Shown piece by piece: positions 21,662-59,936 of a stretch of DNA of 64,000 bases. A model generated the notes under the pieces. The model ran no database searches, had not been told where the DNA came from, and was given only the letters and a program-made list of their open reading frames with translations. The DNA lies in the NCBI GenBank assembly GCA_025526915.1, contig JAHLKH010000073.1, forward strand, positions 1 through 64,000, given 5' to 3'. Position numbers and translations under genes: made by a program. Positions within the stretch are counted from its first letter, which is position 1. Every line of letters starts with the position of its first letter. The DNA comes from Entophlyctis helioformis. Taxonomy: Eukaryota > Chytridiomycota > Chytridiomycetes > Chytridiales > Chytriomycetaceae.

Positions 21662-21703
<42 letters not shown>

Positions 21704-23996: not shown

Positions 23997-26900
23997 ATGT
24001 CGGACGAAGGACAAGCTGGCGGCAGTCGGAGAGAAGGCCTACGGCCTCGGAGAGGCCAGCCGCAAACAGCACCAGCAGCAAGCTCTGCCCACGACACCGC
24101 AGGTGGCAGTGCGTCTGCTGGATCCTCTCAGCTCCCCGCCAGTGGCAGTTCGGCTGCTGGACCCGCGGGAAAGCGCCGACGGCTTGGTGCCCAAGAAGCA
24201 ACACAGGCTGCACAAGCAACCGCAGCCGCTTCTGCTGCTGCTGCATCGGCTCAGCCCAAGACACCGACGCCCGCCGAGCAGCCTCCGCCTGCGGCATGGT
24301 ACATATACGAAGGCAAAGCTGATATTACGGCCCTCACCGAACCAACAGTCCGAGCTCTGAAAGCAAAAGTCATCCAATTGCAAAAGCTCGACAATGACAC
24401 CCGCCTGGCCGTCCACCTGGATGGAGTGCTGCTGGCCGACGACGTCATTGTCCAGTCCGACTACAACCGCAAGTACGCAGTTGGGCTCTCAGTCGAACTT
24501 TCCGACGGTATGTGTGCTTCTGCTGTGCTGGCTCTGGGTCTGCTTGCTTGCTGACTCTTTGTTGTTGACTTGACCAGATATCGCGCACCTGCTGCTTAAA
24601 GGTAGCTTGATCATCAAAGCCAAGGAGCAGGCGATGATAGTGTTTGCACGACAGCGAGCAAAGCGCGAGGCGGCTACCAGCAGCGACGTCGATCGTCTCT
24701 TGGCCGCCATTCGCTCGGAGACTGTTGCCCGGCGGATGTTCTCTCTGTCGCGGTTCGGCATCATCTATGTCGCGGCATTCAAGCAGTTTGGGCGGCTTGA
24801 TCCATCCAGCCGCATGTTTGACAACCCGGTCATGCTCGTCTCGATTGGGCAGCCACCGTCACGCACTGCGGTTCGCAGGGCAAACGACATTGCTGCGGAC
24901 GAGTCGCAGAATGCTCTGGAGCGGCTCATCGGAGACCTTGCAGTTGGAGCCCCTCTCCCGGTCAGCATCACCAGCCGCCTGGACGTGCATGCGCGTAGGC
25001 ATCAAGCAGCAGCATGGCGAAGGGCTATGCTCACCCTCAACTCGTTTTGGCACAAGATGGAGGCGGCTCCAGAGGCTTGCTACCACATTATGTACCACAC
25101 GATCTTCAAGGCGGCCCTCGAGAGCCTCGATCCGTTGGTTGGCGTCAGTGCCGAGGACCAATTGAGCAACTACAACAAGCAGTTCGACAGGCGGCGTCCC
25201 GACATTGCGGCGTGTATCAAGAACCCGCCTCGCAGGACGAATGACGATCGCACGGCAACTCAGTTGGCATCCCTTCGCTGTCCGTTCTTTCTCGCCGAGG
25301 TGTCTGGATTCCGCGTTACTGGAACCGACGACCACAAGGATTTCCAGAAGATTGCATGCGACATGATGATGTGCATGCTTGTCTGGCTTGGTAAGTGGCT
25401 GAATGTGCCGCATTGCTTGCGCCGCATTGCTTGTGTTGCATACCAGACACACACAATACTCACCATCCATGTCTGTGCAATGGACCATCTCCAGGGTTGT
25501 TCCGTGGTGCTTCAGTAGACATGAAAAAGGAGCTGCGTGTCTATGGTGCACTGATTGGAGCGTCGACCATCGAGTTTATCTGTATGCGGCCAGTCTTTCA
25601 GACAGGTGGCCAAGTCGTACTGCTGCTCCATACGAACAAGAGCGACTGGACCATCTCGTTTGACACCCAGGCTCAAGGTCCAGCAGCAGCAGCAGCAGCA
25701 TCGGCAGCACCGCCTTCAGAAGAGTCAAGTGCCTCAGCCACAGATCCTTCAGAAATCGACGAGCAGGCACTTGCTGCTAGTGCAGCTGTGGACGAGCGGC
25801 TTCTGGAAGACATTGCAGGCCAGGACGATCAAGGACAGGCTCCCACCGACAAACGCCTCATGGGTTTCGTGCGCGCTGATCTCAGCACTGACGAGGGCCA
25901 CACGCATGTTGCTGGCCATGTGGGGAAGATTTTCGACTTTGCCAATCATCTTCGAGGATATTCACGACAACTGTTCAACTGGCTCAGCACCACAACGAAC
26001 CTCGACGAGCCTTACAACTATCCAAAAGGTGCACCGTCGCCTGTGCCCTCACGCAATACTAACAAACAGCAAACCGACAAACAGCACTGCGTTTCACCTT
26101 CAAAGGGACGCAAATCACCACGCACGCCAAGCAAGACCAGTGGTGGCGATGCAGGCGGGGCGGGCGGCGTATTGGGCATCATGGGCGAGCTTCTGCGTTC
26201 CTGGAAGCTGTCCAAGGTCGAGCAGTTCTCAGCACCACATGGCATCACCGTCGTGTTTGCCAAGGAACGCGATGGCACGACGTTGTGCGTCAAGCACAAG
26301 CCGCGCGGCTGGAGCAAGGAGATCGAGATGACGCGCATGGTGCAGGGCCACCCGAACATTGTCAAGTTTGTTGCAGCCAAGAGCCTGGCCACGGACGGCC
26401 CTGGCATTGTGCTGGCTGAGGAGCGACTGTTCCATGATCAGGCCATGCTGTGCACTGGCAGCCCAGCGACCTGTCTGCAGCATGTCGTGACGTACGTCAT
26501 GCACGGTCTGGCTGCACTCGAACACCTCGCGTCTCTCCATATTGTGCACTGCGACATCAGCCCGAGCAACATCATGTACTCGCGCCGTCGCCAGGTCTGG
26601 TGCCTCTTCGACTTTGGTTCAGCAACCGAGGTCTCTGCCAGTCGCTCTTCTGTGTGTCGCAGGGAAATCCATGGCACCGACTCGTTCATTGCACCCGAGG
26701 CACTCTCTGGCCGCACATACTCGATCGCGTCTGATCTGTGGAGCTTTGGTGCGACGGCCGCCAGTGTCTCCAAGGATGCCATCAGCGCATCATTTGGCTG
26801 GGGCACGCCTGACGCTGGTGCACGTGTCGTGATTGTTGGCAAGATTCGCACAGAGATCCGTCGCCTGATGCGAGACCAGCCAGGCGATCGTGCAGCAGCA

Positions 26901-27023
26901 TCGGATGTGCGCCAGGCGTTTGTCAAGATCCAGCGCGACGTGGACAGACTCGTCAACCCTGAACTTGCTGCGCAGGTCGAGCCGATGGACGAGAGCCAGG
27001 CATCTGCGGTTGCGGCTGTGTGA
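23997..27023 (+). CDS. Crinkler-type (CR) effector-like protein with C-terminal kinase, copy A (intact)
   Basis: Three exons (23997-24507, 24578-25390, 25495-27023), about 950 residues; an in-frame Met also lies at 23943. Parts in order: a disordered Ala/Ser/Gln region with a basic GKRRRLG; a ubiquitin-like module (about residues 105-170: WYIYEGKADI, TVRALKAKVIQLQK, HLDGVLLADDV); a middle domain (DVDRLLAAIR ... CPFFLAEVSGFRV ... DDHKDFQKIA) that may be REase-like; and a kinase with CVKHKP (beta-3 Lys), HCDISPSNIMY (catalytic loop, as in FunK1-type kinases), DFGSA and APEAL. CR proteins of oomycetes and chytrids combine a ubiquitin-like header with nuclease or kinase domains and often act in host nuclei. 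No signal peptide is visible. The CR assignment rests on architecture; function is inferred. Confidence 0.7.
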
Positions 27024-27200
27024 GTGGCGAGGCTGAACAACAGCAGCATTGCACAGAATGAATGAACATGTTTGCACTTGATGATGAATGCGAGGCATGT
27101 CTGGCTGTTATTGCTGCAATCAAGACACGAAGGGCGACTGTGGCTGCAATGGTCTGACGGCGGTCTTGGATGCATGTTCATTCTGGCTTGACCAGGCGAC

Positions 27201-29793
27201 TCACTCCTTGGCTGCACGAGCAGTCGTGGTCAGGAACGTGTCCAGGAAGTGCACCATGGCGATGGCGTGCTGCTCCTGCACAGACGTCTGCTTGAACACG
27301 TGGCCCTCCTTCTCGCCAATGAACAGCCAGCACGGAACGCCGTTGGCATCCAGCTTGTTGGCCATCTGGATCGCCTCGTTGAGCGGCACGCGCACATCGT
27401 TCTCGCCCTGGCCCATGAACAGCGGCACCGTGATCCTGTCCGTGTGCGTCAGCGGCGAGATGTCGTGCAGGAACGCGCGCATCTCTGGGATCCGCTCGTC
27501 GCCGTACTCTGGACGACGGAGATCGCGTCTGAACGGCTGTTGTTGTTGTTGGATGTGTGCCAGTCGGCGTCAGTCGGCGTCAGTTGGTGCAGTCGGTGCC
27601 AGTCGCGTCAGTCGGCAGATGTGCAAGCACAGTGATGGCTGGCTTACTGCTGTCGATTCAAGGAACGTCACAAAGTCACTGATGCCGCACGTGGCGACGC
27701 CGCAAGCAAGGCGTGGCGAGTAGTGCACCAGACTGGCAAGCACCATGTAGCCACCGTCTGTCCATCACGTCGTTCATCAGCAAGCAGGCACAGAACACTG
27801 CCAGCTGGCTGCTGGTCAGCCAAGCCAAACACGCACAGACACGTACACGAGCGGCCCATTACACAGACACGCTTGCTGTCGAGACTCGGGTGTGCAGCAA
27901 TCCAGTCGAGAATGGCGCCAATATCGCTGCCAGTCCATTCCAATCGAGCCGCCAATCGAGTCGTCAGTCCATCAGCCATGCACGCAATGCGGGTCAGCAA
28001 CCACTCCCAAGCGGCAACCGCACTCACCGCACAGAGTCTTCGCGCTTCATCTGGTCGTCTGCCTTCATGTATCGAGTGCCATATCCACGCGATCCGCGCA
28101 CATTCGGCGCGATCACAGCAACACCCATCTCGTTGAGCAGGAACTGGAACGACAGCGTGTGGTTGGCCGGCACAAAGTTGGGCACAAACTGCGACTCGGG
28201 TCCGCCGTGGATGTAAATGACAACAGGGACAGACGCATCCGTCTTGTCGAGCATGTCCTGGCGCGCATACACAAACGCCGGCACGAGCTCGCCGTCAAAC
28301 GACGCGCATCGGATGATCGAGGGGATGGTGACGGGGTATGCAGGCGTGGCTGGCGACGCGACGAGCGTGGTCCATTCGCGAGTGGCGAGATCGACCGTCA
28401 TGAGCGAGCCGGGCGATGCAGGCGAGTTGATGGCCACGCAGGCAAGGCTCGACTTGCCCTTGAGAGGAGCCGCGCGCTTCTTGAGCATGCACTCGCCAAA
28501 GATGCCGGGCACGGGGGTTGGAACCGACTCGACTGTCGATGTGGCCATGTTGAGGTCAAAGATCGTGGTCCAGCCGTCCTCGTTGGCGAAATAGTACACG
28601 TGGTCGTCGACAACGTCAAAGCTCTCGACGTCCCACTCGAGCCGGACAAGGCCGTTGCCAGACGACGAGACCATCTCGCTGGTGGCCGATGTGGTCAGAT
28701 CAAACTCGCACAGAGCAGCAAAGTCGGTGAATGCGTTCGTGATGAACAGGATCTTGGACGCGGCAGACGGGTCCAGCCAGCGCGCGCCAGCAAGCACGAC
28801 AGGACGGTCGGCCACGGACAGCGGCGTCATGTCGGCAGCCGTGTACGGCGCAGTGTCGGTGCTGGCAGGACGCTTGGTGCTGACGACAAAGAGGGACATG
28901 TCGCTGGCAGACTTGTACTTGGCGAGCAGAGCGCGGTCGGCATCGGCGGCATAGTCGGCCACAGCCCACATGCCGTCGGTCTCGACCAGCATGAACTCGG
29001 ATCCGTCGTCGGCGGACGGGTTGATGGCCGAGCGCACATAGATGTCGCTGTCGCGGTTGTTGCGCTTGGAGCTCGAGTACGCAATGCGGTCGTCGCCGAG
29101 CGGCCGCACCGCCATCACGCGGCCGTCGGTGTCGATGGGACGCACGGCGCCGCGCGATCCCAGAGCGGCCGGGTACTCGAGGTAGTGCAGCTGCCACACC
29201 TCGTTGCCGGCCGTGTCCATGAGGAAGAAGGCGCCGTCACGCAGCGGCGTCAGGCCGCCGATGTTGCTGCCCTCGCTCGTCTCGGAGATGAACGTGACCC
29301 GGACGTGGTCGGCCGAGCCCGGCACGACAAAGAACACCTCGAGCGACGGGTTGGGCACGGCGGCCGTGGCGTCTGGCCGCTTGAGGAAGAAGACGCCGGC
29401 CTCGTACAGCGAGCCGGGTGCACCCCAGCCGAGATGGTGCAGCGGCTCAGCGCCGGCCATGTAGTCGGGCAGAGCACGCAGGAGGCGGGCGGGCATGGTG
29501 GAGCGGTCGGGCAGGCCAAACGTGGTGACGAGCGGCGCCGGGTGGGCCTCGGGCACGAGGTTGACGGCCAGGATGGCCGATGTCGTGGAGGCTGCGGCGG
29601 CAGCAGCGAGCGTCTTGGCTGCCACGGGGGCCGTTGTTGCAGTGCTGATCGTCATGGGCTGCCTGGTTGGTGTTTGGGGCGGGCGGGACAAGGCGGGCGG
29701 CGCGGCGAGTGGAAGCAGGCTGGTGCACGTGGCTGTGCATGTGCACCACAAAAGCACTGTAAAAGCAGCAGCGAGCGTGCTGGTGACGCTCAT
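27201..29793 (-). CDS. Secreted S9 (prolyl oligopeptidase family) peptidase, copy 1
   Basis: Four exons (29793-28028, 27926-27847, 27757-27648, 27536-27201), 763 residues. The N-terminus MSVTSTLAAAFTVLLWCTCT looks like a signal peptide. A long beta-propeller-type region precedes the alpha/beta-hydrolase domain: YIHGGPESQ (oxyanion side), NVRGSRGYGTRY, GRSYGGYM with the nucleophile Ser split from its neighbour by intron 2, GENDVRVP (Asp) and EGHVFKQ (His). The triad is complete. Such enzymes are dipeptidyl- or acylaminoacyl-peptidases. The gene stands tail-to-tail with CR copy A (177 bases between stops). Start chosen for the signal peptide. Confidence 0.88.
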
Positions 29794-30123
29794 TGCTGGC
29801 GATGCTGGCGATGCTGCGACGAGCAAACGCACCAGCACCACTCTTGGCCCGACACGATCGCAGGTCAGCGACTTGTGGATCACTTGCTGCCAGTGCGTGA
29901 GCTGTGTCTGCCTCGGCTGCTGTCCAACGGCTTCTTTGAAGGCGGCGATGGCAATGGCACCAAGACTGGCTGCTGTCTGCAGCTGGTGATCAACAGACAG
30001 CGGCTGCTTGTGTCTTCATCAACAAAGTGAACACACTGCGCGAGTCTGGCTGGCTGTCGTGTTCAATGGCAGTGGTGGCTGTTGCACAGGGATGTATTGA
30101 TGACAGACAGATAGACAGACAGA

Positions 30124-33100
30124 TCACACCTGCGAGGCGTTGAAGTGGCCGCTGGCAATCTCGCGAATGACGGCAGCGTTGGCAGCACCAGTCGCATCTA
30201 CAAGCTCGCCAAACACAGAGCCAGACCGGCCGAGCAGCACATGCGGCGCAGCAAACTCGGCAATCTCGCCCTGGTCAGCACAATCACGCGGTCAAACGCC
30301 GCAATCGTGTTGAGACGGTGCGCAATGCTCAGCACCGTCGTGTGTGCAAACTGCGACCGGATCGACTCTTGGATGCGCTTGTCGGCCTCGGCATCCACCG
30401 ACGCCGTCGCCTCGTCCATGATGAGCACCTTGGGCCGCGCGAGAATGGCCTTGGCAAGACACAGCAGCTGGCGCTGGCCCATCGACAGGTTGGATCCGTT
30501 CTCCTCGATCGCCGCATCCAGCTTGTCCGTCTGCGCAGCCACGTAGTCCTTGAGACCCACGAGCGACAGCGACTCCCACAGCTGGTCGTCGGTGTATCCC
30601 GTCTGCAGCATGTCGAGGTTGGACCGCACACTTCCCTTGAACAGCACGGGCTCCTGCGGGATGATCTGCAGGCGAGAGCGCAGCGTCTTGAGACCGAGCG
30701 TCGCAATGTCGCGGCCATCGATGGTGATGGATCCCTTGGATGCCTCCATGATGCGGAACAGGGCCGTCATGAGCGTGCTCTTGCCCGAGCCGGTGCGGCC
30801 GACAATGCCGACCTTTTCGCCAGGACGGATGTCGAGCGACAGGTTCTTGATGACGGCGTGGTCGGGACGCGAGTCGTAGCAGATCTGCAGGTCGCGGATG
30901 GCAAGTGCACCGGCAGTCGGCCACTCGTCCTTGGTCGCAGGGTCGTTGGGCATCACGCGCGGTGCCTCGGACGGCAGCTCGTTGGCGTAGTGGTTGAGAC
31001 GCTCGACGGCGTTGAATGATGCCTCCGCATTGCCTGAATACCACGCCAGTCGACTGTTAGTGTCTGGACGTGCAGTGTCCGTAGGGCGACTGCCTTACCA
31101 ATCAGAAAGAGGAACATGTTGAGCGATGCGCCAATCGAAATCGACGACGACAGCGACAGACCGACAGAAGCGCCAGTGAGGATGCCAGCTGCAGCAAGAG
31201 AAAGGATGACAAGCGTCACTGTCGAGGCAAGGATCTCAAGGCGGAACGACAGCCAGAACTGCGTGCTCATTAGCATGAACATTGCGAGGTTGGACTTGTC
31301 CATCTTGGCATTCTGGCCATGGATGAATCGAGGTGCAGCTCCGTATGCCAGGATGGTGGGAATGCCGCTGAGTGTCTCAGAGATGTGCGCACTCAGAGGC
31401 GATCGCATGATGGACGACAAACGCTTGAGCTCGCGGTACGACGACTGGAAGAACACAAAGGCGGAGCCAGAGATGACCAAAAGAACACCGAATTGGACTG
31501 CGTGCCAGAAACATGTTAGCCTGCATGTCAGTCAGCGGGCCATCTCGAAGACGCAAACTCACTGAGCAGGAACGCGTTCGAGTAGACGACAACGATGATG
31601 GACGCGATGAGACCGACGAGGCCAAAGGCAACGCCAACAAACATATCGCCCATGCTAAGATCGAGCGATTGCACGTCGGTGGTCATGCGGTTGAGAATGC
31701 GGCCAATGGGCTGGCTGTCAAAGAAGGACATGGGTGTACGGATAAGGCCGTCAAGAGCGCGGTTGTGGAGCACAATAGCCGACTTGTATGTGCCAAGCAG
31801 CACGACCGAGGTAAGGAGCACTAGTATGTGCAACGGTCGCGTTGGTCAGTCGTCCGTCTGAACCGCTGCCAGAACCGCTGCATGAGCAATGACAAGATCG
31901 ATGAGATGAGAGCTAACTTACCGACGATGAGTGTGTCGAGTGCGCCAAGACCGGCGTACAAGTTAAAGTAGTTGGAGAACGACAGCCTCCACTTGTCTTC
32001 GATCCAGATGACGAGCATGATGCGCACAAACGACGTCGCGCCGACATTGAGCAGCACCAGCAGGATGATCAGTCCAAAGAAAATGTATCCAGCCGCCAGG
32101 AAGTACGAGCGGATCGTGTCCATGCTGACAGCACCCTGGAAACAGATGTCTCAAGTCAGATCGGGCTGGTGCAAGAAAAGCATGAGAATCAGCCCAACTC
32201 ACCTCGCGGCGGTCCTCGGCGACGGCCTTTTCGTCCTCAAACTTGGCGACAGCCTTGGCAGTATCCTCGGGCTTCTTGTCATCGATCTTCTTGCCGCCCT
32301 CGGCTTCCTCGTCGTCAAAGTGGTAGTCCTTCATGATGCCAGAGAGAGCGCTCTCGGGGACAGCCATGAGATCCTTGAACGTGCCCGTCTCGGCAACACG
32401 ACCATTGTCAAGCACGACAACAAAGTCGACCTTGGGAAGCAGGTGCAGCTGGTGCGTGACAAGCACGACCGTCTTGCTCTTGAGCGTGCCGCAGATGGCC
32501 TCGTCAAACACCTTCTTGCCGACATGCGCATCGAGTGCGGCAATGGGATCGTCGAGCAGGTAGATGTCGGCATCGCGAGCAATGGCACGAGCGAGTGCAA
32601 CACGAGCCTTCTGGCCGCCAGACAGGTTGATGCCCTTCTCGCCAATCTGCGTGCCGAGACCGTTGGGGAGGATCTCGAGATCGTGCTCGAGACACGAGGC
32701 AGACACGGCCTTGGCGATGTTGGGACGCACCGAGTCGTCGCTGAACACAATGTTCTCCTCGATGGTGCCGGTCAGGATCCACGGCTCCTGAGCGCAGTAG
32801 GCGACGGATCCGTAGACGGACGACGAGCCGGCCGTCTTGCGCATGCCGCCAATGAGAGCAGACAGGAACGACGACTTGCCAGATCCGACAGAGCCGACAA
32901 CAGCAACGAGCGAGCCACGCGGGATGGACAGGTTGATGTCCTCGAGCTTGAACGGCTCTTCCTTGGTCTCTTCAGCTGCAGAGTCTGTCTCAACGACAGT
33001 CTCGGCAGACGCGTCCTTGGCGTCCTTCTTGGCATCAGCAGCAGCCTTCTTGTCCTTCTTGTCCTTCTTGTCGGCATTCTTGACAGTCTCCCAGGTGAAC

Positions 33101-34532: not shown

Positions 34533-34699
34533 GTTGAATGGTGCACTATCTGGGAAAAGCGCTCGGCGCCGAATGCCGGCATTCTGAATCGTCGCATTTG
34601 AAAATTTTCATGTCGTCACGGACAGTGTGGCTGTGGCGCTCTTTTATGACGACGCTGACGACGCTGACGACGCTGACGATGCTCACGATACTGACGACG

Positions 34700-36779: not shown

Positions 36780-36840
36780 TGAAGGGTGCTGGATGGAGCA
36801 TTAATGAATGGGGGATTGCATTGAAGGACAGGTTGGCAGA

Positions 36841-45251: not shown

Positions 45252-45439
45252 CTGCCGTTCATCCAGACTCGCACATCTCTCATCTCTGATGTCAACAAGC
45301 TGCCAGAAACAGCAGATGCAGGCACTTGCACGACACACAACGCGCGTGTCGCGTGTGCTGGTCGCCTTCGCAGTGCGGACGAGACAGAGACGGTCTGTAT
45401 CTCGATGGAGTGCATGCCATGCGGAATGCTCCACCAGGT

Positions 45440-45620
45440 ACTCGAGGCGATCCAGATAGCCAACATGCTGGATGCCAACGGCGTTCCGTGCTGGCTGTTC
45501 ATTGGCGAGAAGGAGGGCCACGTGTTCAAGCAGACGTCTGTGCAGGAGCAGCATGCCATCGCCATGGTGCACTTCCTGGACACGTTCCTGACCACGACTG
45601 CTCGTGCAGCCAAGGAGTGA
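45440..45620 (+). pseudogene. S9 peptidase 3'-end fragment
   Basis: It encodes EAIQIANMLDANGVPCW to the C-terminus ARAAKE, nearly the same as the ends of the two full S9 genes, including EGHVFKQ. Everything upstream of the fragment is unrelated. It marks the left end of the third duplicated unit. Confidence 0.9.
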
Positions 45621-45799
45621 GTCGTCTGGCCAAGCCAGAATGAACATGCATCCAACACCGCCGTCCGACCATTGCAGCCACAGTCGTCCTTCGTGTCTTG
45701 ATTGCAGCAATAACAGCCAGCATGCCTCGCATTCATCATCAAGTGCAAACATGTTCATTCATTCTGTGCAATTCTGCTGCTCCTGTTCAGCCTCGCCAC

Positions 45800-48700
45800 T
45801 CACACAGCCGCAACCGCAGATGCCTGGCTCTCGTCCATCGGCTCGACCTGCGCAGCAAGTTCAGGGTTGACGAGTCTGTCCACGTCGCGCTGGATCTTGA
45901 CAAACGCCTGGCGCACATCCGATGCCGCTGCACGATGCCTGGCTGGTCTCGCATCAGGCGACGGATCTCTGTGCGAATCTTGCCAACAATCACGACACGT
46001 GCACCAGCGTCAGGCGTGCCCCAGCCAAATGATGCGCCGATGGCATCCTTGGTGACACTGGCGGCCGTCGCACCAAAGCTCCACAGATCAGACGCGATCG
46101 AGTAGGTGCGGCCAGAGAGTGCCTCGGGTGCAATGAACGAGTCGGTGCCATGGATTTCCCTGCGACACACAGAAGAGCGACTGGCAGAGACCTCGGTTGC
46201 TGAACCAAAGTCGAAGAGGCACCAGACCTGGCGACGGCGCGAGTACATGATGTTGCTCGGGCTGATGTCGCAGTGCACAACATGGAGAGACGCGAGGTGT
46301 TCAAGTGCAGCCAGACCGTGCATGACGTACGTCACGACATGCTGCAGACAGGTCGCTGGGCTGCCAGTGCACAGCATGGCCTGATCATGGAACAGTCGCT
46401 CCTCCGCAAGCACAATGCCAGGGCCGTCCGTGGCCAGGCTCTTGGCTGCAACAAACTTGACAATGTTCGGGTGGCCCTGCACCATGCGCGTCATCTCGAT
46501 CTCCTTGCTCCAGCCGCGCGGCTTGTGCTTGACGCACAGCGTCGTGCCATCGCGTTCCTTGGCAAACACGACGGTGATGCCATGTGGTGCTGAGAACTGC
46601 TCGACCTTGGACAGCTTCCAGGAACGCAGAAGCTCGCCCATGATGCCCAATGCGCTGCCTGACCCGCCCGCCCCGCCTGCATCGCCACCACTGGTCTTGC
46701 TTGGCGTGCGTGCCGATCCGAGTTCTCGTGGCGCTTTAGGCTGATTCTTTTTGGCTGTCGGCTGTTCGTGATATCGCGTGAGGGCACAGGCGACGGTGCA
46801 CCTTTTGGATAGTTGTATGGCTCGTCGAGGTTCGTTGTGGTGCTGAGCCAGTTGAACAGTTGTCGTGAATATCCTCGAAGATGATTGGCAAAGTCGAAAA
46901 TCTTCCCCACATGGCCAGCAACATGCGTGTGACCCTCGTCAGTGCTGAGATCAGCGCGCACGAAACCCATGAGGCGTTTGTCGGTGGGAGCCTGTCCTTG
47001 ATCGTCCTGGCCTGCAATGTCTTCCAGAATCTGCTCGTCCACAGCTGCGCTAGCAGCAAGTGCCTGCTCATCGATATCTGAAGGATCTGTGGCTGAGGCA
47101 CCTGACTCTGCTGATGCTGATGCTGATGCTGCTGCTGCTGATGCTGATTCTGATGCCGATGCTGCTGCTGGACCTTGAGCCTGGCGTGTCAAACGAGATG
47201 GTCCAGTCGCTCTTGTTCGTATGGAGCAGCAGTACGACTTCACCACTTGTCTGAAAGACTGGCCGCATACAGATAAACTCGATGGTCGACGCTCCAATCA
47301 GTGCGCCATAGACACGCAGCTCGTTTTTCATGTCTACTGAAGCACCACGGAACAACCCTGAAGATGGTCCATTGCACAGACATGGATGGTGAGTGTTGTG
47401 TGTGTCTGGTATGCAACAAGCAATGCGGCGCAAGCAATGCAGCACATTCAGCCACTTACCAAGCCAGACAAGCATGCACATCATCATGTCGCATGCAATC
47501 TTCTGGAAATCCTTGTGGTCGTCGGTTCCAGTAACGCGGAATCCAGACACCTCGGCAAGAAAGAACGGACAGCGAAGGGATGCCAACTGAGTTGCCGTGC
47601 GATCGTCATTCGTCCTGCGAGGCGGGTTCTTGATACACGCCGCAATGTCGGGACGCCGTCTGTCGAACTGCTTGTTGTAGTTGCTCAATTGGTCCTCGGC
47701 ACTGACGCCAACCAACGGATCGAGGCTCTCGAGGGCCGCCTTGAAGATCGTGTGGTACATAATGTTGTAGCCGGCTTCTGGAGCCGCCTCCATCTTGTGC
47801 CAAAACGAGTTGAGGGCGAGCATAGCCCTTCGCCATGCTGCTGCTTGATGCCGACGCGCATGCACGTCCAGGCGGCTCGTGATGCTGACCGGGAGAGGGG
47901 CTCCAACTGCAAGGCCGCCGATGAGCCGCTCCAGAGCATTCTGCGACTCGTCCGCAGCAATGTCGTTTGCCCTGCGAACCGCAGTGCGTGATGGTGGCTG
48001 CCCAATCGAGACGAGCATGACCGGGTTGTCAAACATGCGGCTGGATGGATCAAGCCGCCCAAACTGCTTGAATGCCGCGACATAGATGATGCCGAACCGC
48101 GACAGAGAGAACATCCGCCGGGCAACAGTCTCCGAGCGAATGGCGGCCAAGAGACGATCGACGTCGCTGCTGGTAGCCGCCTCGCGCTTTGCTCGCTGTC
48201 GTGCAAACACTGTCATCGCCTGCTTCTTGGCTTCGATGATCCAGCTACCTTTAAGCAGCAGGTGCGCGATATCTGGTCAAGTCAACAACAAAGAGTCAGC
48301 AAGCAAGCAGACCCAGAGCCAGCACAGCAGCAGCACACATACCAGCAGGAATGGTGGCTGGCTGCGGCCCAGATTGGAAATACTCGATGACATAGGTATC
48401 ATCAAAGTTGACAGAAGCGTCATCGTCCAGCACTTGGTCGTTTAGGCGAACGATGAAACCGTCGCTGTCTTTGCTGACCATATCAGCGATGTCTTGTTTG
48501 AGACAAAGAACAGTCTGCTCCTGAAGCCTAATGCTGCCCTTCATGTCACCGAATGTGAACATGGTTTTTTTACGACGCTGGCGGGCGGGCGGCGGTGTCT
48601 TGGGCTGAGCCGATGCAGCAGCAGGAGCGGCTGCGGTTGCTTGGCAGCGGTTTCGTCCGAGACAAAGAAGGGATTGGCTGGATCGAAGAATGCCGGCTCA

Positions 48701-48878
48701 GGGTTTTGTTGGCGGTCTGCAGACGCACTGCCACCGGCGGGGTCCTGCGCGGGTCGAGCAGACGAACTGCCAGCTGCGGTGTCTTGGGCAGAGCCGCTGC
48801 TGGTGCTGCTTGCGGCTGGCCTCTCCGAGGCCGTAGGACCCTTTGCGAACGGCCGCCAGCTTGTCCTTCGTCCGACAT
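45800..48878 (-). pseudogene. CR effector-like/kinase gene, copy B (multiple frame breaks)
   Basis: Same exon layout as copy A. The header module is of a second type: MFTFGDMKGSI, TVLCLKQDIADM, RLNDQVLDDDA, YVIEYFQ (48562-48360), preceded by a basic RQRRKK. Middle domain and kinase (CVKHKP, HCDISPSNIMY, DFGSA, APEAL) are close to copy A. Frame breaks against copies A and C: about 48793 and 48640 in exon 1, an extra base near 47182, a change near 46773 and a missing base near 45945 in the kinase tail. Translation from Met 48562 could still yield the header plus middle domain. Flanking fragments show it arose as part of a larger duplicated piece. Confidence 0.82.
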
Positions 48879-48956
48879 CTGGTTGACAGTTGGCAGTTGA
48901 GGCGGAAAGATGCGAAATCCACGCAGATTCATTCGTCGTGACAGAGCGGGATCGTG

Positions 48957-49066
48957 CTATCCAGCGTCGTGCTCGACAAGCACGGCGACATCGTCGCTCT
49001 TCTGTCGGTCGGGCTGCCCCAATGGCGTGCCTGCTGATATCCGCACGATCGCCTCGCACTCTGCAT
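48957..49066 (-). pseudogene. 3' tail fragment of the small membrane-protein gene
   Basis: It encodes ECEAIVRISAGTPLGQPDRQ to the C-terminus VLVEHDAG, matching the ends of the genes at 23918 and 60015. Homology stops near 49066; upstream sequence is unrelated. Confidence 0.88.
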
Positions 49067-49474: not shown

Positions 49475-52400
49475 ATGGCGTTGGAGAAAGCCGAGGCAGT
49501 GCACAAGACAGCCGTTGGGCAAGAGGCAGCCGGCCAGCGGTACGACCCTGGAGCCATCGAGTACAACTGGTTCTCGTATGTGACGCTGGGGTTTGTGTGG
49601 CCGCTGCTCAAGCGAGGCTACCAGACACCCATCCAGGAGCAGGTGCGTTGCCTCGGCTCGGCTTCGACTGCCTACTGGCGCTCTTGATTGCTGATCCTAG
49701 ACCATCCAGGACCTGCCTGCTCTCCATGTGGGCGACCGGTCCAAGACAAATGCGCACATCGTCGACGCTTTCTGGCGCAAGGTCGCTGCACATACAGCCA
49801 GACCCGACGCTGTCCCGGCGCCGAGCTTCCTGCTGACCGTCGCCTCGCACTTTATCTGGCTCTTGTGAGTACCATCCACTGGCATCATGTGCCGCGTGTG
49901 GCCGTGCACTCTGGATTGACAGATCGATCCTCGCCGACCGCCAGCCTTGCCGATCTGCTTTTCTCCGCACTCGGTGTCGCCGCTGCCATTGCCATGCCGC
50001 TCATGATCGGCCAAATCATGGCGTCTCTGGACAACCCGCAGCCCGCTCTGCTCTCCAGCCCATACTTTCTCGCTGTCGCCTTCTTTGTGCTGCAGGTCCT
50101 CAGCGCGCTGTCGTCATCAACAGCCAAAAGCATCGCCAACACCATGACCAACCGCACACGCTCCGTCGTCATGTCGGCCATCTACCGCAAATCCCTGCTG
50201 CTCTCGCCCGCCGCCCGCGTGTCGTTCCCTCCTGGCACGATCCAGACCATGCTGACCAGCGATGCAAGCAGTCTGTACAGCATTGGGTCGCAGGCGATAG
50301 GCCTCGTGTTCAGCTTGCTCCAGATCTTTCTTGCTGTGTACTACCTGTCGCTGCGTGTCGGCTGGGTGGCGTGGATCGTCGCCATTGCATTTATCCTCGC
50401 GGTGCAGCTTGGCGTTACACCCTCGGTGGGGTCGGCATACTCTGGGTTTTCAGAGCAGATGAGCACACGCACGCGTCGGCTGCGCGAGTTTCTCTATGGC
50501 GTGCGGATCATCAAGCTGCAAGCCACCGAAGAGACGCTCGTGCGCCTGATTGGTGAGGCGCGCGCTGACCAGGTTGACGCGCTTCGAAAGTACCTTGTCC
50601 CTGTGTTCTGGCTGTATGTAGTGTCCATCATAGAGCAGAACCTGGTGCCAGTCGGCGTGGTGGTCCTATACGGTGCTTTCAGCAAGAACGTTGGATCAGA
50701 ATCGGTGTTCACGATCCTGGCTCTTCTCGGTGCTGCCATGGGCCCATCGGCAACGCTCTCGACTTCCGTCGCGTGAGTGTTTCTGTGGTTTGTACGTTGA
50801 GTGTGCTTGGCTGAGGCTGACACTGGTGTAAATGGGTTTAGGACTGTGATGAAGTTCAAAGTGTCGTATGCCCGCGTCACAGCGCTCCTGCTTGCTCCAG
50901 AAGTCCAACCAGAGGAAGTCACCGCTTTTGTTGACGAGGGCCAGTCAGATGATGGATCAGTCATCAGCTTGAGCAGCGCGTCGTTCACTTGGGAGCAGGT
51001 CAAGGCAGATGATGAGGACCAGTCCAAGGAGGAGCCGTTCAAGCTCGAGGACCTCAACTTGTCCATCCCACGCGGCTCGCTCGTTGCTGTCGTCGGCTCT
51101 GTCGGATCTGGCAAGTCGTCGTTCCTGTCTGCTCTCATTGGCGGCATGCGCAAGACGGCCGGCTCGTCGTCCGTCTTTGGATCCATCGCCTACTGCGCTC
51201 AGGAGCCGTGGATCCTGACTGGCACCGTTGAGGAGAACATTGTGTTCAGCGACGAGTCTGTGCGTCCCAACATCGCCAAGGCCGTGTCTGCCTCGTGCCT
51301 CGAGCACGATCTCGAGCTCCTCCCCAACGGTCTCGGCACGCAGATTGGCGAGAAGGGCATCAACCTGTCTGGCGGCCAGAAGGCTCGTGTTGCACTCGCT
51401 CGTGCCATTGCCCGCGATGCCGACATCTACCTGCTCGACGATCCCATTGCCGCCCTTGATGCACACGTCGGCAAGAAGGTGTTTGACGAGGCCATCTGCG
51501 GCACGCTCAAGAGCAAGACGGTCGTGCTTGTCACGCACCAGCTGCACCTGCTTCCCAAGGTCGACTTTGTCGTCGTGCTTGACAATGGTCGTGTTGCCGA
51601 GACGGGCACGTTCAAGGATCTCATGGCTGTCCCCGAGAGCGCTCTCTCTGGCATCATGAAGGACTACCACTTTGACGACGAGGAAGCCGAGGACAGCGAA
51701 GAGGACAAAGAGGAAGCCAAGGAGGACGACGAGATCATCAAGGCCATTAAGGCATATGAGGATGAGGCGGCTATTGCCGAGGATCGTCGCGAGGTACTTC
51801 TTCTATATGCACGTCTGTCTCATACTCATCGTAGTCGCACTGACAAGTGTATCCACAGGGTGTGGTGACGTTCGAGACATTTAGATCATACTTCCTTGCA
51901 GCCGGCAAAGCCTTTTTTGGTATCCTCATCACGCTCTTTCTGATCAGCATGGGTGTCAATGCCCTCGTGCGCATCTCTCTCGTCGTCATCGCAGATAACC
52001 GATGGGGCTGGACCATTGGCAACTACCTCATCTACTACGGCAGCATCGGTCTTTTTGACACGATCCTCACTCGTACGTGCACTACCTGCTGTCTTTGGAA
52101 TTGTGACCTGTAACTGATCCTCGTGCACAAAGTTGGCCTGCAGGGACTGTTGTTCATTGCTGCGTTCAAGGCTGCTTGCGTCCTTCATGATCGGGCTCTC
52201 GACGGGCTCGTCCGCGCGCCAATGTCGTTCTTTGACAGCCAGCCTATCGGCCGCATCCTGAACCGCATGACGGCCGATGTGTCGTCGCTGGACATGAGCA
52301 TTGGAGAAGTCATCGCCACCTTCTCGGACAGCGCCGTCAGCCTCGGATCGTCGCTTATCGTCGTCATCTACACATCGCCATGGCTGATTGGTCTGTGTCC

Positions 52401-53768
52401 AAGCATGCTTTGTGTTCTGCACTTTCAACCCGCATGGACTGACGTTTTGCAACAGCCCAACTCGTTGTCATCACTCTGCCTGCCTGGTACTTTTTGCGTT
52501 ACTACCTGGCATCTTACCGCGAGATGAGACGTCTCTCGTCCATCATGCGATCGCCCTTCTTTTCACACGTCTCCGAAACGCTCAATGGCATCCCCACCAT
52601 CAAGGCATTCAAGGCAGACGAAAGGTTTATCGGCATACAGGAACGCAAGTCGGACATATCGTGCACGTCGGGCACGATTCTGTCTAGCATCCACTACTGG
52701 CTCGGTCTGCGACTTCAGCTGCTTTCGTCGACTATCACGCTCGTGGCGCTCCTTCTGGCTGCGACAAACTTGCTCAAGGGATCGTTCAATGCGGGTCTCT
52801 TTCTGACAACCATGATCACGCTTAGCAGCTCGCTTAACTCATCCATCATGTACATGGGAGTTGTGGAAGCATCATTCACGTCCGTCGAGCGTCTCAACTA
52901 CTACGCCAACGAGCTGCCGTCCGAGGCACCGCGCGTGATGCCCAACGACCCTGCGACCAAGGACGAGTGGCCGACTGCCGGTGCACTTGCCATCCGCGAC
53001 CTGCAGATCTGCTACGACTCGCGTCCCGACCACGCCGTCATCAAGAACCTGTCGCTCGACATCCGTCCTGGCGAAAAGGTCGGCATTGTCGGCCGCACCG
53101 GCTCGGGCAAGAGCACGCTCATGACGGCCCTGTTCCGTATCATGGAGGCATCCAAGGGATCCATCACCATCGACGGCCGCGACATTGCGACGCTCGGTCT
53201 CAAGACGCTGCGCTCTCGCCTGCAGATCATCCCGCAGGAGCCCGTGCTGTTCAAGGGAAGTGTGCGGTCCAACCTCGACATGCTGCAGACGGGATACACC
53301 GACGACCAGCTGTGGGAGTCGCTGTCGCTCGTGGGTCTCAAGGACTACGTGGCTGCGCAGACGGACAAGCTGGACGCGGCGATCGAGGAGAACGGATCCA
53401 ACCTGTCGATGGGCCAGCGCCAGCTGCTGTGTCTTGCCAAGGCCATTCTCGCGCGGCCCAAGGTGCTCATCATGGACGAGGCGACGGCATCGGTGGATGC
53501 CGAGGCCGACAAGCGCATCCAAGAGTCGATCCGGTCGCAGTTTGCACACACGACGGTGCTGAGCATTGCGCACCGTCTCAACACGATTGCGGCGTTTGAC
53601 CGCGTGATTGTGCTCGACCAGGGCGAGATTGCCGAGTTTGCTGCGCCGCATGTGCTGCTCGGCCGGTCTGGCTCTGTGTTTGGCGAGCTTGTAGATGCGA
53701 CTGGTGCTGCCAACGCTGCCGTCATTCGCGAGATTGCGTCTGGCCACTTCAACGCCTCGCAGGTGTGA
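49475..53768 (+). CDS. ABCC (MRP)-type ABC transporter 2
   Basis: Seven exons (49475-49642, 49701-49864, 49945-50772, 50842-51793, 51859-52072, 52133-52390, 52456-53768) give 1298 residues with all phases matching. TMD1-NBD1-TMD2-NBD2. NBD1 has GSVGSGKSS, LSGGQKARVALARA and LLDDPIAALD; NBD2 has GRTGSGKSTL, LSMGQRQLLCLAKA, LIMDEATASVD and the intact tail VLDQGEIAEF to NASQV. Exons 5 and 6 have the same lengths (214, 258) as in ABC-1. The N-terminus and both membrane domains are clearly diverged from ABC-1, while both nucleotide-binding domains are nearly identical even at silent sites. A poly-Glu/Lys stretch follows NBD1. The substrate cannot be told. Confidence 0.92.
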
Positions 53769-54060
53769 TCTGTCTGTCTATCTGTCTGTCATCAATACAT
53801 CCATGTGCAACAGCCACCACTGCCATTGAACACGACAGCCAGCCAGACTCGCGCAGAGTGTTCACTTTGTTGATGACGACACAAGCAGCCGCTGTCTGTT
53901 GATCACCAGCTGCAGACAGCAGCCAGTCTTGGTGCCATTGTCATCGTCGCCTTCAAAGAAGCCGTTGGACAGCAGCCGAGGCAGACACAGCTCACGCACT
54001 GGCAGCAAGCGATCCACAAGTCGCTGACCTGCGATCGTGCCGGGCCAAGAGTGGTGCTTT

Positions 54061-56671
54061 ATGCTCGTCGTCAGCATCGTCAGCAATGAGCGTCACAGCC
54101 ACGCCACGCTCGCTGCTGCTTTTACAGTGCTTTTGTGGTGCACATGCACAGCCACGTGCACCAGCCTGCTTCCACTCGCCGCGCCGCCCGCCTTGTCCCG
54201 CCCGCCCCAAACACCAACCAGGCAGCCCATGACGATCAGCACTGCAACAACGGCCCCCGTGGCAGCCAAGACGCTCGCTGCTGCCGCCGCAGCCTCCACG
54301 ACATCGGCCATCCTGGCCGTCAACCTCGTGCCCGAGGCCCACCCGGCGCCGCTCGTCACCACGTTTGGCCTGCCCGACCGCTCCACCATGCCCGCCCGCC
54401 TCCTGCGTGCTCTGCCCGACTACATGGCCGGCGCTGAGCCGCTGCACCATCTCGGCTGGGGTGCACCCGGCTCGCTGTACGAGGCCGGCGTCTTCTTCCT
54501 CAAGCGGCCAGACGCCACGGCCGCCGTGCCCAACCCGTCGCTCGAGGTGTTCTTTGTCGTGCCGGGCTCGGCCGACCACGTCCGGGTCACGTTCATCTCC
54601 GAGACGAGCGAGGGCAGCAACATCGGCGGCCTGACGCCGCTGCGTGACGGCGCCTTCTTCCTCATGGATACGGCCGGCAACGAGGTGTGGCAGCTGCACT
54701 ACCTCGAGTACCCGGCCGCTCTGGGATCGCGCGGCGCCGTGCGTCCCATCGACACCGACGGCCGCGTGATGGCGGTGCGGCCGCTTGGCGACGACCGCAT
54801 TGCGTACTCGAGCTCCAAGCGCAACAACCGCGACAGCGACATCTATGTGCGCTCGGCCATCAACCCGTCCGCCGACGACGGATCCGAGTTCATGCTGGTC
54901 GAGACCGACGGCATGTGGGCTGTGGCCGACTATGCCGCCGATGCCGACCGCGCTCTGCTCGCCAAGTACAAGTCTGCCAGCGACATGTCCCTCTTTGTCG
55001 TCAGCACCAAGCGTCCTGCCGGCACCGACGCTGCGCCGTACACGGCTGCCGACATGACGCCGCTGTCCGTGGCCGACCGCCCTGTCGTGCTTGCCGGCGC
55101 GCGCTGGCTGGACCCGTCTGCCGCGTCCAAGATCCTGTTCATCACGAACGCATTCACCGACTTTGATGCTCTGTGCGAGTTTGATCTGGCCACATCGACC
55201 ACCAGCGAGATGGTCTCGTCGTCTGGCAACGGCCTTGTCCGGCTCGAGTGGGACGTCGAGAGCTTTGACGTTGTCGACGACCACGTGTACTATTTCGCCA
55301 ATGAGGACGGCTGGACCACGATCTTTGACCTCAACATGGCCACATCGACAGTCGAGTCGGTTCCAACCCCCGTGCCCGGCATCTTTGGCGAGTGCATGCT
55401 CAAGAAGCGCGCGGCTCCTCTCAATGGCAAGTCGAGCCTTGCCTGCGTGGCCATCAACTCGCCTGCATCGCCCGGCTCGCTCATGACGGTCGATCTCGCC
55501 ACCCGCGAATGGACCACGCTCGTCGCGTCGCCAGCCACGCCTGCATACCCCGTCACCATCCCCTCGATCATCCGATGCGCGTCGTTTGACGGCGAGCTCG
55601 TGCCGGCGTTTGTGTATGCGCGCCAGGACATGCTCGACAAGACGGATGCGTCTGTCCCTGTTGTCATTTACATCCACGGCGGACCCGAGTCGCAGTTTGT
55701 GCCCAACTTTGTGCCGGCCAACCACACGCTGTCGTTCCAGTTCCTGCTCAACGAGATGGGGGTTGCCGTGATCGCGCCGAATGTGCGCGGATCGCGTGGA
55801 TACGGCACTCGATACATGAAGGCAGACGACCAGATGAAACGCGAAGACTCTGTGCGGTGAGTGCAGTTGCCGCTTGGGAGTGGTTGCTGACCCGCATTGC
55901 GTGCATGGCTGACGGACTGATGACTCGATTGGCGGCTCGATTGGATTGGACTGGCAGTGATATTGGCGCCATTCTCGACTGGATTGCTGCACACCCGAGT
56001 CTCGACAGCAAGCGTGTCTGTGTGATGGGCCGCTCGTGTACGTGTTTGTGCGTGTTTGGCTTGGCTGACCAGCAGCCAGCTGGCAATTGTTCTGTGCCTG
56101 CTTGCTGATGAACGACGCGATGGACAGACGGTGGCTACATGGTGCTTGCCAGTCTGGTGCACTACTCGCCACGCCTTGCTTGCGGCGTCGCCACGTGCGG
56201 CATCAGTGACTTTGTGACGTTCCTTGAATCGACAGCAGTAAGCCAGCCATCACCGAGCTTGCACATCTGCCAAGTGCACTCGCACCAACTGACGCCGACT
56301 GACGCCGACTGGCACACATCCCAAAACAACAACAGCCGTTCAGACGCGATCTCCGTCGTCCAGAGTATGGCGACGAGCGGATCCCAGAGATGCGCGCGTT
56401 CCTGCACGACATCTCGCCGCTGACGCACACGGACAAGATCACGGTGCCGCTGTTCATGGGCCAGGGCGAGAACGATGTGCGCGTGCCGCTCAACGAGGCG
56501 ATCCAGATGGCCAACAAGCTGGATGCCAACGGCGTTCCGTGCTGGCTGTTCATTGGCGAGAAGGAGGGCCACGTGTTCAAGCAGACGTCTGTGCAGGAGC
56601 AGCATGCCATCGCCATGGTGCACTTCCTGGACACGTTCCTGACCACGACTGCTCGTGCAGCCAAGGAGTGA
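54061..56671 (+). CDS. Secreted S9 (prolyl oligopeptidase family) peptidase, copy 2
   Basis: Four exons (54061-55856, 55958-56037, 56128-56237, 56336-56671), 773 residues, phases as in copy 1. The catalytic set YIHGGPESQ, GRSYGGYM, GENDVRVP and EGHVFKQ is conserved. The N-terminus differs: an indel puts the ATG equivalent to copy 1 (54086) out of frame, and Met 54061 supplies MLVVSIVSNERHSHATLAAAF, leaving the hydrophobic segment TLAAAFTVLLW further inside. Secretion may thus be altered. Substitutions against copy 1 are few (e.g. A/D in TDFDALCEF). The 292-base spacer to ABC-2 repeats 29794-30123. Confidence 0.87.
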
Positions 56672-56861
56672 GTCGCCTGGTCAAGCCAGAATGAACATGC
56701 ATCCAAGACCGCCGTCCGACCATTGCAGCCACAGTCGCCCTTCGTGTCTTGATTGCAGCAATAACAGCCAGACATGCCTCGCATTCATCATCAAGTGCAA
56801 ACATGTTCATTCAATCTGTGCAATTCTGTGCAATGCTGCTGTTTCTGTTCAGCCTCGCCAC

Positions 56862-59800
56862 TCACACAGCCGCAACCGCAGATGCCTGGCTCTCGTCCAT
56901 CGGCTCGACCTGCGCAGCAAGTTCGGGGTTGACGAGTCTGTCCACGTCGCGCTGGATCTTGACAAACGCCTGGCGCACATCCGATGCTGCTGCACGATTG
57001 CCTGGCTGGTCTCGCATCAGGCGACGGATCTCTGTGCGAATCTTGCCAACAATCACAACACGTGCACCAGCGTCAGGCGTGCCCCAGCCAAATGATGCGC
57101 TGATGGCATCCTTGGTGACACTGGCGGCCGTCGCACCAAAGCTCCACAGATCAGACGCGATCGAGTAGGTGCGGCCAGAGAGTGCTCGGGTGCAATGAAC
57201 GAGTCGGTGCCATGGATTTCCCTGCGACACACAGAAGAGCGACTGGCAGAGACCTCGGTTGCTGAACCAAAGTCGAAGAGGCACCAGACCTGGCGACGGC
57301 GCGAGTACATGATGTTGCTCGGGCTGATGTCGCAGTGCACAACATGGAGAGACGCGAGGTGTTCAAGTGCAGCCAGACCGTGCATGACGTACGTCACGAC
57401 ATGCTGCAGACAGGTCGCTGGGCTGCCAGTGCACAGCATGGCCTGATCATGGAACAGTCGCTCCTCGCAAGCACAATGCCAGGGCCGTCCGTGGCCAGGC
57501 TCTTGGCTGCAACAAACTTGACAATGTTCGGGTGGCCCTGCACCATGCGCGTCATCTCGATCTCCTTGCTCCAGCCGCGCGGCTTGTGCTTGACGCACAG
57601 CGTCGTGCCATCGCGTTCCTTGGCAAACACGACGGTGATGCCATGTGGTGCTGAGAACTGCTCGACCTTGGACAGCTTCCAGGAACGCAGAAGCTCGCCC
57701 ATGATGCCCAATGCGCTGCCTGACCCGCCCGCCCCGCCTGCATCGCCACCACTGGTCTTGCTTGGCGTGCGTGCCGATCCGAGTTCTCGTGGCGCTTTAG
57801 GCTGATTCTTTTTGGCTGTCGGCTGTTTGTTAGTATCGCGTGAGGGCACAGGCGACGGTGCACCTTTTGGATAGTTGTATGGCTCGTCGAGGTTCGTTGT
57901 GGTGCTGAGCCAGTTGAACAGTTGTCGTGAATATCCTCGAAGATGATTGGCAAAGTCGAAAATCTTCCCCACATGGCCAGCAACATGCGTGTGACCCTCG
58001 TCAGTGCTGAGATCAGCGCGCACGAAACCCATGAGGCGTTTGTCGGTGGGAGCCTGTCCTTGATCGTCCTGGCCTGCAATGTCTTCCAGAATCTGCTCGT
58101 CCACAGCTGCGCTAGCAGCAAGTGCCTGCTCATCGATATCTGAAGGATCTGTGGCTGAGGCACCTGACTCTGCTGATGCTGATGCTGATGCTGCTGCTGC
58201 TGATGCTGATTCTGATGCCGATGCTGCTGCTGGACCTTGAGCCTGCGTGTCAAACGAGATGGTCCAGTCGCTCTTGTTCGTATGGAGCAGCAGTACGACT
58301 TCACCACTTGTCTGAAAGACTGGCCGCATACAGATAAACTCGATGGTCGACGCTCCAATCAGTGCGCCATAGACACGCAGCTCGTTTTTCATGTCTACTG
58401 AAGCACCACGGAACAACCCTGGAGATGGTCCATTGCACAGACATGGATGGTGAGTATTGTGTGTGTCTGGTATGCAACAAGCAATGCGGCGCAAGCAATG
58501 CAGCACATTCAGCCACTTACCAAGCCAGACAAGCATGCACATCATCATGTCGCATGCAATCTTCTGGAAATCCTTGTGGTCGTCGGTTCCAGTAACGCGG
58601 AATCCAGACACCTCGGCAAGAAAGAACGGACAGCGAAGGGATGCCAACTGAGTTGCCGTGCGATCGTCATTCGTCCTGCGAGGCGGGTTCTTGATACACG
58701 CCGCAATGTCGGGACGCCGCCTGTCGAACTGCTTGTTGTAGTTGCTCAATTGGTCCTCGGCACTGACGCCAACCAACGGATCGAGGCTCTCGAGGGCCGC
58801 CTTGAAGATCGTGTGGTACATAATGTTGTAGCCGGCTTCTGGAGCCGCCTCCATCTTGTGCCAAAACGAGTTGAGGGCGAGCATAGCCCTTCGCCATGCT
58901 GCTGCTTGATGCCTACGCGCATGCACGTCCAGGCGGCTGGTGATGCTGACCGGGAGAGGGGCTCCAACTGCAAGGCCGCGATGAGCCGCTCCAGAGCATT
59001 CTGCGACTCGTCCGCAGCAATGTCGTTTGCCCTGCGAACCGCAGTGCGTGATGGTGGCTGCCCAATCGAGACGAGCATGACCGGGTTGTCAAACATGCGG
59101 CTGGATGGATCAAGCCGCCCAAACTGCTTGAATGCCGCGACATAGATGATGCCGAACCGCGACAGAGAGAACATCCGCCGGGCAACAGTCTCCGAGCGAA
59201 TGGCGGCCAAGAGACGATCGACGTCGCTGCTGGTAGCCGCCTCGCGCTTTGCTCGCTGTCGTGCAAACACTGTCATCGCCTGCTTCTTGGCTTCGATGAT
59301 CCAGCTACCTTTAAGCAGCAGGTGCGCGATATCTGGTCAAGTCAACAACAAAGAGTCAGCAAGCAAGCAGACCCAGAGCCAGCACAGCAGCAGCACACAT
59401 ACCAGCAGGAATGGTGGCTGGCTGCGGCCCAGATTGGAAATACTCGATGACATAGGTATCATCAAAGTTGACAGAAGCGTCATCGTCCAGCACTTGGTCG
59501 TTTAGGCGAACGATGAAACCGTCGCTGTCTTTGCTGACCATATCAGCGATGTCTTGTTTGAGACAAAGAACAGTCTGCTCCTGAAGCTAATGCTGCCCTT
59601 CATGTCACCGAATGTGAACATGGTTTTTTTACGACGCTGGCGGGCGGGCGGCGGTGTCTTGGGCTGAGCCGATGCAGCAGCAGGAGCGGCAGCAGTAGCG
59701 GCTGCGGTTTCGTCCGAGACAAAGAAGGGATTGGCTGGATCGAAGAATGCCGGCTCAGGGTTTTGTTGGTGGTCTGCAGACGCACTGCCACTGGCGGGGA

Positions 59801-59936
59801 GCTGAGAGGGTCCAGCAGACGCACTGCCACCTGCGGTGTCTTGGGCAGAGCTTGCTGCTGGTGCTGTTTGCGGCTGGCCTCTGCGAGGCCGTAGGCCTTC
59901 TCTCCGACTGCCGCCAGCTTGTCCTTCGTCCGACAT
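56862..59936 (-). pseudogene. CR effector-like/kinase gene, copy C (four single-base deletions)
   Basis: Layout and second-type header are as in copy B; an intact disordered N-terminus (MSDEGQAGGSRREG, later NPEPAFFDPANPFF) and RQRRKK precede the header. Compared with A and B, single C/G bases are missing near 59587 (in the header), 58979 (middle domain), 57466 and 57185 (kinase, before and after the catalytic loop). The frame in between is otherwise open and the sequence strongly conserved. All four losses are in short C or G runs, so sequencing error is a serious alternative to decay. Confidence 0.8.

Follow-up and report, generated by a model that had tools for sequence, protein, structure and literature searches.

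Three copies of one gene in the analysed window (bases 1-64000 of contig C73 of the Entophlyctis helioformis assembly), here termed A, B and C, are 96-99% identical by region from their start and leader through intron 1 to the body, apart from a header of ~240 bp that differs. As judged by comparison of these sequences with the 29.6 Mb assembly (482 contigs), old header modules have been exchanged within recently shared gene frames and have reassorted with linkers and bodies. The copies probably belong to a family of Crinkler-like (CR) effector kinases in which ectopic recombination, most likely gene conversion, exchanges old coding modules. The original prediction had read the difference as recombination of an N-terminal module. 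This reading is upheld in part, with the modules being old, but the headers proved not to be unrelated, and the role in targeting that was proposed for them is speculative.

Gene structure and family members

The start ATGTCGGACGAAGG is identical at 23997 (+), 48878 (-) and 59936 (-), so the shared start predicted for copies A, B and C was confirmed at all three positions (Table 1). The product of copy A would consist of a leader, a ubiquitin-like header, a middle domain and a kinase. The kinase in exon 3 matched PF00069 (E 2.4e-21). The middle domain (exon 2) had no match in Pfam or NCBIfam; going by the published CR-kinase architecture (PMC5289972), it would be expected to be REase-like.

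Every residue of the public protein P0001 agrees with copy B, over three segments (1-73, 74-345 and 346-440). It thus matches spliced copy B, indicating that the public gene model has the same introns 1 and 2. P0001 begins at a methionine within the header, and the leader is omitted from the public model. The start codon of A was aligned with an ATG in 5/6 copies of a sister subfamily, which favors a translated leader. Note that the leader has a pN/pS of 0.7-1.2, a level of constraint that does not prove it to be coding.

Table 1. Features of copies A, B and C and of the duplication arms in the window.
Feature	Position	Strand	Remarks
Copy A exon 1	23997-24507	+	leader, linker, header
Copy A conserved leader (exon 1 start)	23997..24149	+	high-identity segment versus C ends at 24149
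Copy A linker block, type L1 (GKRRRLG)	24150..24265	+	type L2 (PEPAFFDPANPFF) in B and C
Copy A exchanged header cassette, type H1	24266..24507	+	ubiquitin-like core 24297-24506
Copy A intron 1	24508-24577	+	70 bp, GT-AG, phase 1; near-identical in 8 close copies
Copy A exon 2, body type I, middle domain	24578-25390	+	without Pfam match
Copy A intron 2	25391-25494	+	conserved between body types I and II
Copy A exon 3	25495-27023	+	protein kinase domain ~26304-26768
Copy B header cassette, type H2	48343..48575	-	sequence comparison, profile match, model/fold comparison
Copy B intron 1	48273..48342	-	match to A intron 1, read 48342-48273
Copy B gene unit	45443..49066	-	3.6 kb; 98.2% to C unit, header too
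Copy C header cassette, type H2	59403..59634	-	the one place in the unit where C449 differs strongly
Copy C intron 1	59333..59402	-	match to A intron 1, read 59402-59333
Copy C gene unit	56494..60124	-	98.2% to B unit
Left arm, ~10 kb inverted segmental duplication, contains A	20970..31029	+	
Right arm, ~10 kb inverted segmental duplication, contains C	52862..62921	-	

Exon 2 DNA of A matched at least 16 places in the genome. Header protein queries found 14 and 11 places among the matches listed, together the same 16 loci, and a header of this family is present at every exon 2 locus (A itself appeared only at E 0.34 in the search giving 14 places). The proposed search for donors and other headers yielded a third type, H3, on the same body I; at that sensitivity, no separate header donors were detected beyond the 16 loci among the matches listed. 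Intron 1 of A had 8 matches in the genome (88-100% identity). As all 8 lie at the homologous site of this one family, an introner (mobile intron) was rejected.

The 8 close copies are A, B, C, K449 (contig C449), K227a and K227b (C227), K77 (C77) and K196 (C196). The other eight loci lie on C54 (two), C114 (two), C214, C27, C115 and C25; six of them, on C54, C114, C214 and C27, form the close sister subfamily. K227a and K77 were compared over the 5' part only, because a contig end cuts K227a and homology of K77 is lost after A 25097. With regard to homologues outside E. helioformis, the exon 2 query returned two proteins, both from E. helioformis, residues 1-75 of P0001 matched P0001 alone, and exon 1 of A returned nothing at E up to 1.

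Pfam ubiquitin (PF00240) matched 6/9 family headers, and the family header profile matched ISG15 and FUBI. When the A and B headers were searched alone, no Pfam match and no useful PDB sequence match was obtained. The B header aligned with the profile of nine other family headers at an hhalign probability of 96.9% (E 1.6e-10, 23% identity), and its predicted model was Ubl-like with modest confidence. Thus, the A and B/C headers, originally described as unrelated, are sharply different (48-49% identity) but are diverged homologues. A ubiquitin-like header is found near the N-terminus, as in CR effectors. Four headers did not match the Pfam Crinkler N-terminal domain (PF20147) at E up to 10, a range in which the HMMER filters drop most matches >0.1. 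Nor did a genome-wide search give a match to this domain, although the controls of that search were not recovered either. We therefore name the family Crinkler-like by architecture, not CRN.

The header contrasts sharply with its surroundings

Identity between A and B/C was 97.9-98.5% in exon 2 and 95.9-98.9% in exon 3, in agreement with the predicted common middle domain and kinase, as against 48-49% in the header. Segmentation of A versus C gave 97.3% identity at 23815-24149, 52.0% at 24150-24506 and 97.4% at 24507-26070. For A versus B, a low header block was obtained at 24276-24506 (44.2%), with smaller low blocks upstream. Two sharp borders instead of gradual divergence across exon 1 had been predicted, and the edges indeed lay at the donor of intron 1 and inside the leader, which is 97% identical to A in C and K449 and 83-88% in the remaining five copies. 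The second variable block that had been noted, GKRRRLG versus PEPAFFDPANPFF, is real as well.

In the comparison of A and C, 124/238 sites differed in the header and 87/3208 in the other parts of the unit (Fisher p 2e-101; hot segment 24149-24508). The scan statistic was 861, compared to a maximum of 22 in 100 shuffles. A contrast was also observed between C and K449, with 120/237 differing sites in the header and 22/3230 in the rest of the unit (Fisher p 1.6e-130); here an unguided scan returned 24266-24507 as the hot segment. Beside the header, C and C449 were 98.5% identical over 3.9 kb on one side and 98.9% over 6.8 kb on the other, their small indels being mostly single bases that may reflect decay or residual assembly error. 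The contrast was also seen on the other body type (II), where K227a and K196 differed at 88/230 header sites and at 8/792 elsewhere (hot segment 24148-24509). Note that the linker (24150-24265) was excluded from the site counts and included in the scans.

The header is the module that differs in most pairs of copies, and the nearest genome-wide relative of the A linker-plus-header is 77% identical. Exon 3 of A contains further variable blocks at 26071-26118 (versus C and K449) and 26758-26850 (versus K227b). The latter is 93 bp long and lies in the K227b kinase, where it shares ~41% identity with A, B, C and K449 within surroundings of >95%; K196 and K227b are alike from 26717 onward.

Headers reassort with linkers and bodies

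Three header types were distinguished: H1 in A, K449 and K227a, H2 in B and C, and H3 in K77, K227b and K196. Identity within types was 86-94% for H3 and 69-74% for H1, which is a loose type. The K449 header in particular is loosely typed, being 74% identical to A, yet 73% to K77. It looks mosaic (24225-24304 near K77, 96%; 24340-24426 near A, 92%), and the header tree places it with A and K227a (support 100/98). Linker L1 occurs in A, K227b and K196, and L2 in B, C, K449 and K77; the linker of K227a is L2 with an insertion and changes (PEPAYYDPANP). A KRRR cluster is present in L1 (24150-24215) and missing in L2, and the sister copies begin with MPSKRRK; we take both to be possible nuclear signals. 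Body I is found in A, B, C, K449, K227b and K77, and body II in K227a and K196.

L1/L2 and H1/H3 occur together in every one of the four possible ways, and so do H1/H3 and body I/II, independent of K449. Four combinations in both pairings require recombination or repeated independent origin. In AU tests, the header data rejected the groups {C,K449} (p 1.9e-85), {K196,K227a} (p 6e-4) and {A,B,C,K449} (p 0.0014), and the exon 2 data rejected the H1 group (p 1.3e-32) and the H3 group (p 3.9e-62), p-values that are descriptive because the groups were chosen once the pattern had been seen. The six sister copies have two versions of a 42-bp header start in otherwise near-identical genes. K114a and K114b differ at 14/42 sites in this stretch, at 5/172 in the other header sites, and at 16/351 upstream and 25/715 downstream.

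A combinatorial cassette system, in which constant leader and introns would frame exchanged, domain-sized exon modules, possibly with RNA or cDNA as template, and which would generate new header-kinase combinations faster than mutation, is conceivable but unlikely.

Arrangement and coding state of the copies

Copies A and C lie in the arms of the inverted segmental duplication. The arms match at 95.1% between 20970-24157 and 62921-59776 and at 96.9% between 24507-31029 and 59403-52862; only linker and header interrupt the match. Immediately outside the B unit, the flanks match K227b (43906-48357 at 94%, 48574-49452 at 90%). With a unit 98.2% like C between K227b-like flanks, B is as whole-unit conversion would leave it. 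C449 matches the left flank of A (16378-18014) and the right flank of C (52590-59402), which suggests a third copy or an inversion-haplotype junction, the inversion being between the inverted repeats A and C. With its left flank A-like and its right flank C-like, K449 as a plain allele of C was rejected.

Several other elements are present in the window. An LTR-like element (18012-20969), with direct repeats of 444 bp that are 99.55% identical (18012-18455 and 20526-20969), sits in the left flank of A and is absent from the corresponding place in C and C449. A repeat of ~590 bp occurs in the duplication arms (29795-30383 and 53508-54085), at 34672-35263, and near the CR loci of C54, C77, C114, C27 and C449. 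An ABC-transporter-like ORF at 31963-33309 (-) (PF00005, E 4e-20) overlaps a 680-bp repeat shared with 51021-51702.

The GT and AG of intron 1 are intact in 8/8 close copies. Exon 1 is open and in phase up to the donor in 3/8 (A, K77 and K227a); exon 2 of K77 is broken, and K227a is open as far as its sequence extends. Six close copies contain all three exons, and A is the only one in which every exon is open. Apart from A, 6/7 close copies have frame breaks, B and C included, and some of the exchange may therefore be among pseudogenes.

Near-identical leaders and bodies might have led the assembler to join the wrong header to a locus. The repeats exceed short-read length, polishing seems imperfect in view of single-base indels and frame breaks, C449 is a contig of 12 kb, and K227a lies at a contig end. 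However, the headers of A, K449 and K227a do not exceed 74% identity to any other header of the eight copies, and the A linker-plus-header has its nearest genome-wide relative at 77%; these three are thus not copies of another assembled locus. Header contrasts were moreover seen in two body types, and the public B gene model agrees with the assembly, though it was built on the same assembly. We thus regard an assembly chimaera as improbable, although a reciprocal mis-join is conceivable.

Introns and flanks are conserved across divergent exons

The predicted near-identity of intron 1 was borne out, with 1 difference in 70 between A and each of B and C. Overall, intron 1 differed at 0-5 positions in 69-70 in the pairs counted, and intron 2 at 1-3 in 102-104 in nine pairs among A, B, C, K449, K227b and K196; in K77, homology is lost at intron 2. 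Conservation of the introns extended across body types. A (body I) and K196 (body II) have a dS of 0.88 in exon 2 and 0.76 in exon 3, compared to non-coding differences of 1/70 in intron 1, 2/104 in intron 2, 8/188 in a 5' stretch and 11/356 in a 3' stretch. For body I versus II pairs in general, introns and flanks were 90.5-100% identical at an exon dS of 0.6-0.9. The K196 kinase is closer to the sister subfamily (84% to K114) than to A (72%), while the introns and 3' flank of K196 are A-like.

Edges were determined by two-state segmentation of all 28 pairs, which are related by descent and thus not independent. Between header and high identity, the edge fell within 24499-24508 (donor 24508) in 20/24 header-contrast pairs. 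The remaining 4/24 edges were at 24526, all in pairs with K227a, which carries a small insertion in the intron. The contrasted exon 2 edge was at 24579 in 8/12 pairs (exon 2 starts at 24578) and within 24570-24598 in 12/12.

Divergence that stops at splice sites would result if conversion were limited to exons by a template of reverse-transcribed mRNA (cDNA), since such donors cannot replace introns. The positions of these header and body edges are as expected for cDNA donors, K196 keeps both introns though most of exons 2 and 3 differs, and an LTR-like element adjoins A. However, all 8 close copies keep the intron 1 splice sites, with no intron-less copy among them. K196 and B/C have the last 8 header bases in common together with intron 1, and K227b and body II share ~20 bases past the acceptor, indicating that some tracts cross splice sites at the DNA level. 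Similarly, the shared island at intron 2 runs from 25273 to 25522-25577 and extends well into both exons, with edges inside exons at 25273 and 25523-25578. Splice-site edges are thus not a rule, and the pairs are not independent. A cDNA template therefore appears doubtful, with a low probability.

Strong functional constraint on introns and flanks, with the conserved islands due to selection only, would fit the coincidence of edges with splice sites at intron 1. In the sister subfamily (C54, C114, C214, C27), however, intron 1 is detectable in only 2/6 copies at ~75% identity, with an exon 2 dS to A of 0.93-1.14, similar to the 0.94 between K196 and A. The introns are therefore not simply frozen, making this explanation very unlikely.

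Header dS was 0.29 for A-K449, 0.70 for K227a-K196, 0.95 for B-K449 and ~2.0 for A-B. The range between header types and within H1 was 0.29-2.1, compared to 0.04-0.15 within H3 (K77-K227b 0.04; H3-K196 0.12-0.15) and 0.02-0.06 in exons 2 and 3 for A-C and A-B. Contrasted headers with a dS of 0.29-2.1 require exchange of old modules. Several header comparisons gave a dN/dS near or above 1, a value that fits relaxed constraint and diversifying selection equally well. A course of events without exchange, in which headers and exons were altered through point mutation under strong diversifying selection and the introns drifted little, is barely credible despite these ratios and the conserved introns: synonymous sites are far diverged both in headers and in the exons of body I/II (0.6-0.9), compared to differences of 0-7% in introns and flanks of the pairs counted, C versus K449 would demand change at half of the header sites with <1% elsewhere, and the four-combination reassortment would have to be explained in addition. 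Point mutation is thus insufficient, as had been argued from the outset.

Probable gene conversion and comparison with known systems

Ectopic gene conversion among dispersed copies would hold flanks, leader and introns near-identical, while diverged coding modules (linker, header, exon 2 and parts of exon 3) would be swapped between copies. The exchange tracts would end in shared stretches, in intron 1 on one side and in the leader on the other. We infer gene conversion rather than crossover as the process. Homogenisation would affect introns and flanks, whereas selection or heterology presumably keeps the coding modules distinct. Against this account, 70 bp of intron is little length for homologous recombination, and plain DNA conversion would not naturally produce edges exactly at splice sites. 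Speculatively, new headers might alter localisation, partners or delivery, with consequences for targeting or trafficking.

Exchange of this general kind is known. In Phytophthora sojae, CRN (Crinkler) sequences are described as split at HVLVVVP into N- and C-termini, with short conserved fragments of 40-303 bp; near-identical C-termini with different N-termini account for 35%, and the reverse for 32% (Shen et al. 2013, PMC3726527). As there, where it goes in both directions, exchange in the chytrid is ectopic, between loci. In contrast to P. sojae, the chytrid cassette has two borders within exon 1, below a shared leader, and the introns are constant. CR effectors are described as combining a protein kinase domain with an N-terminal header that is ubiquitin-like (Zhang et al. 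2016, via PMC5289972), with REase plus kinase given as about one sixth of CR C-termini (PMC5289972). The chytrid genes differ in the ~100-residue leader that would precede the header if translated and in having no Pfam Crinkler match.

In snake venom toxin genes, ASSET is described as leaving introns highly similar while exon segments of 4-53 bp are switched and the fold is kept; its origin and mechanism are called unknown in the ASSET papers. The chytrid family likewise has introns more conserved than exons and switched exon segments. Unlike in ASSET, the cassettes reach the size of a domain, most of their versions are also present in other copies, and they demonstrably reassort. The mechanism left open for venom genes thus becomes testable. 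With at least 16 loci, 8 of them close copies, the family is small and countable enough for dissecting exon-module switching under constant introns, with module versions in one genome and exchanges datable from the flanks (C versus C449 ~0.7% outside the header).

In MHC-type evolution, introns are made uniform by gene conversion, whereas exons under selection remain divergent. The chytrid genes differ in being fungal and effector-like, with modules at the level of domains. The literature searched gave no account of header cassettes being exchanged among CR genes of chytrids. Thus, what is new is a two-sided, reassorting cassette beside constant introns, which extends the N-terminal exchange of Crinklers to a chytrid.
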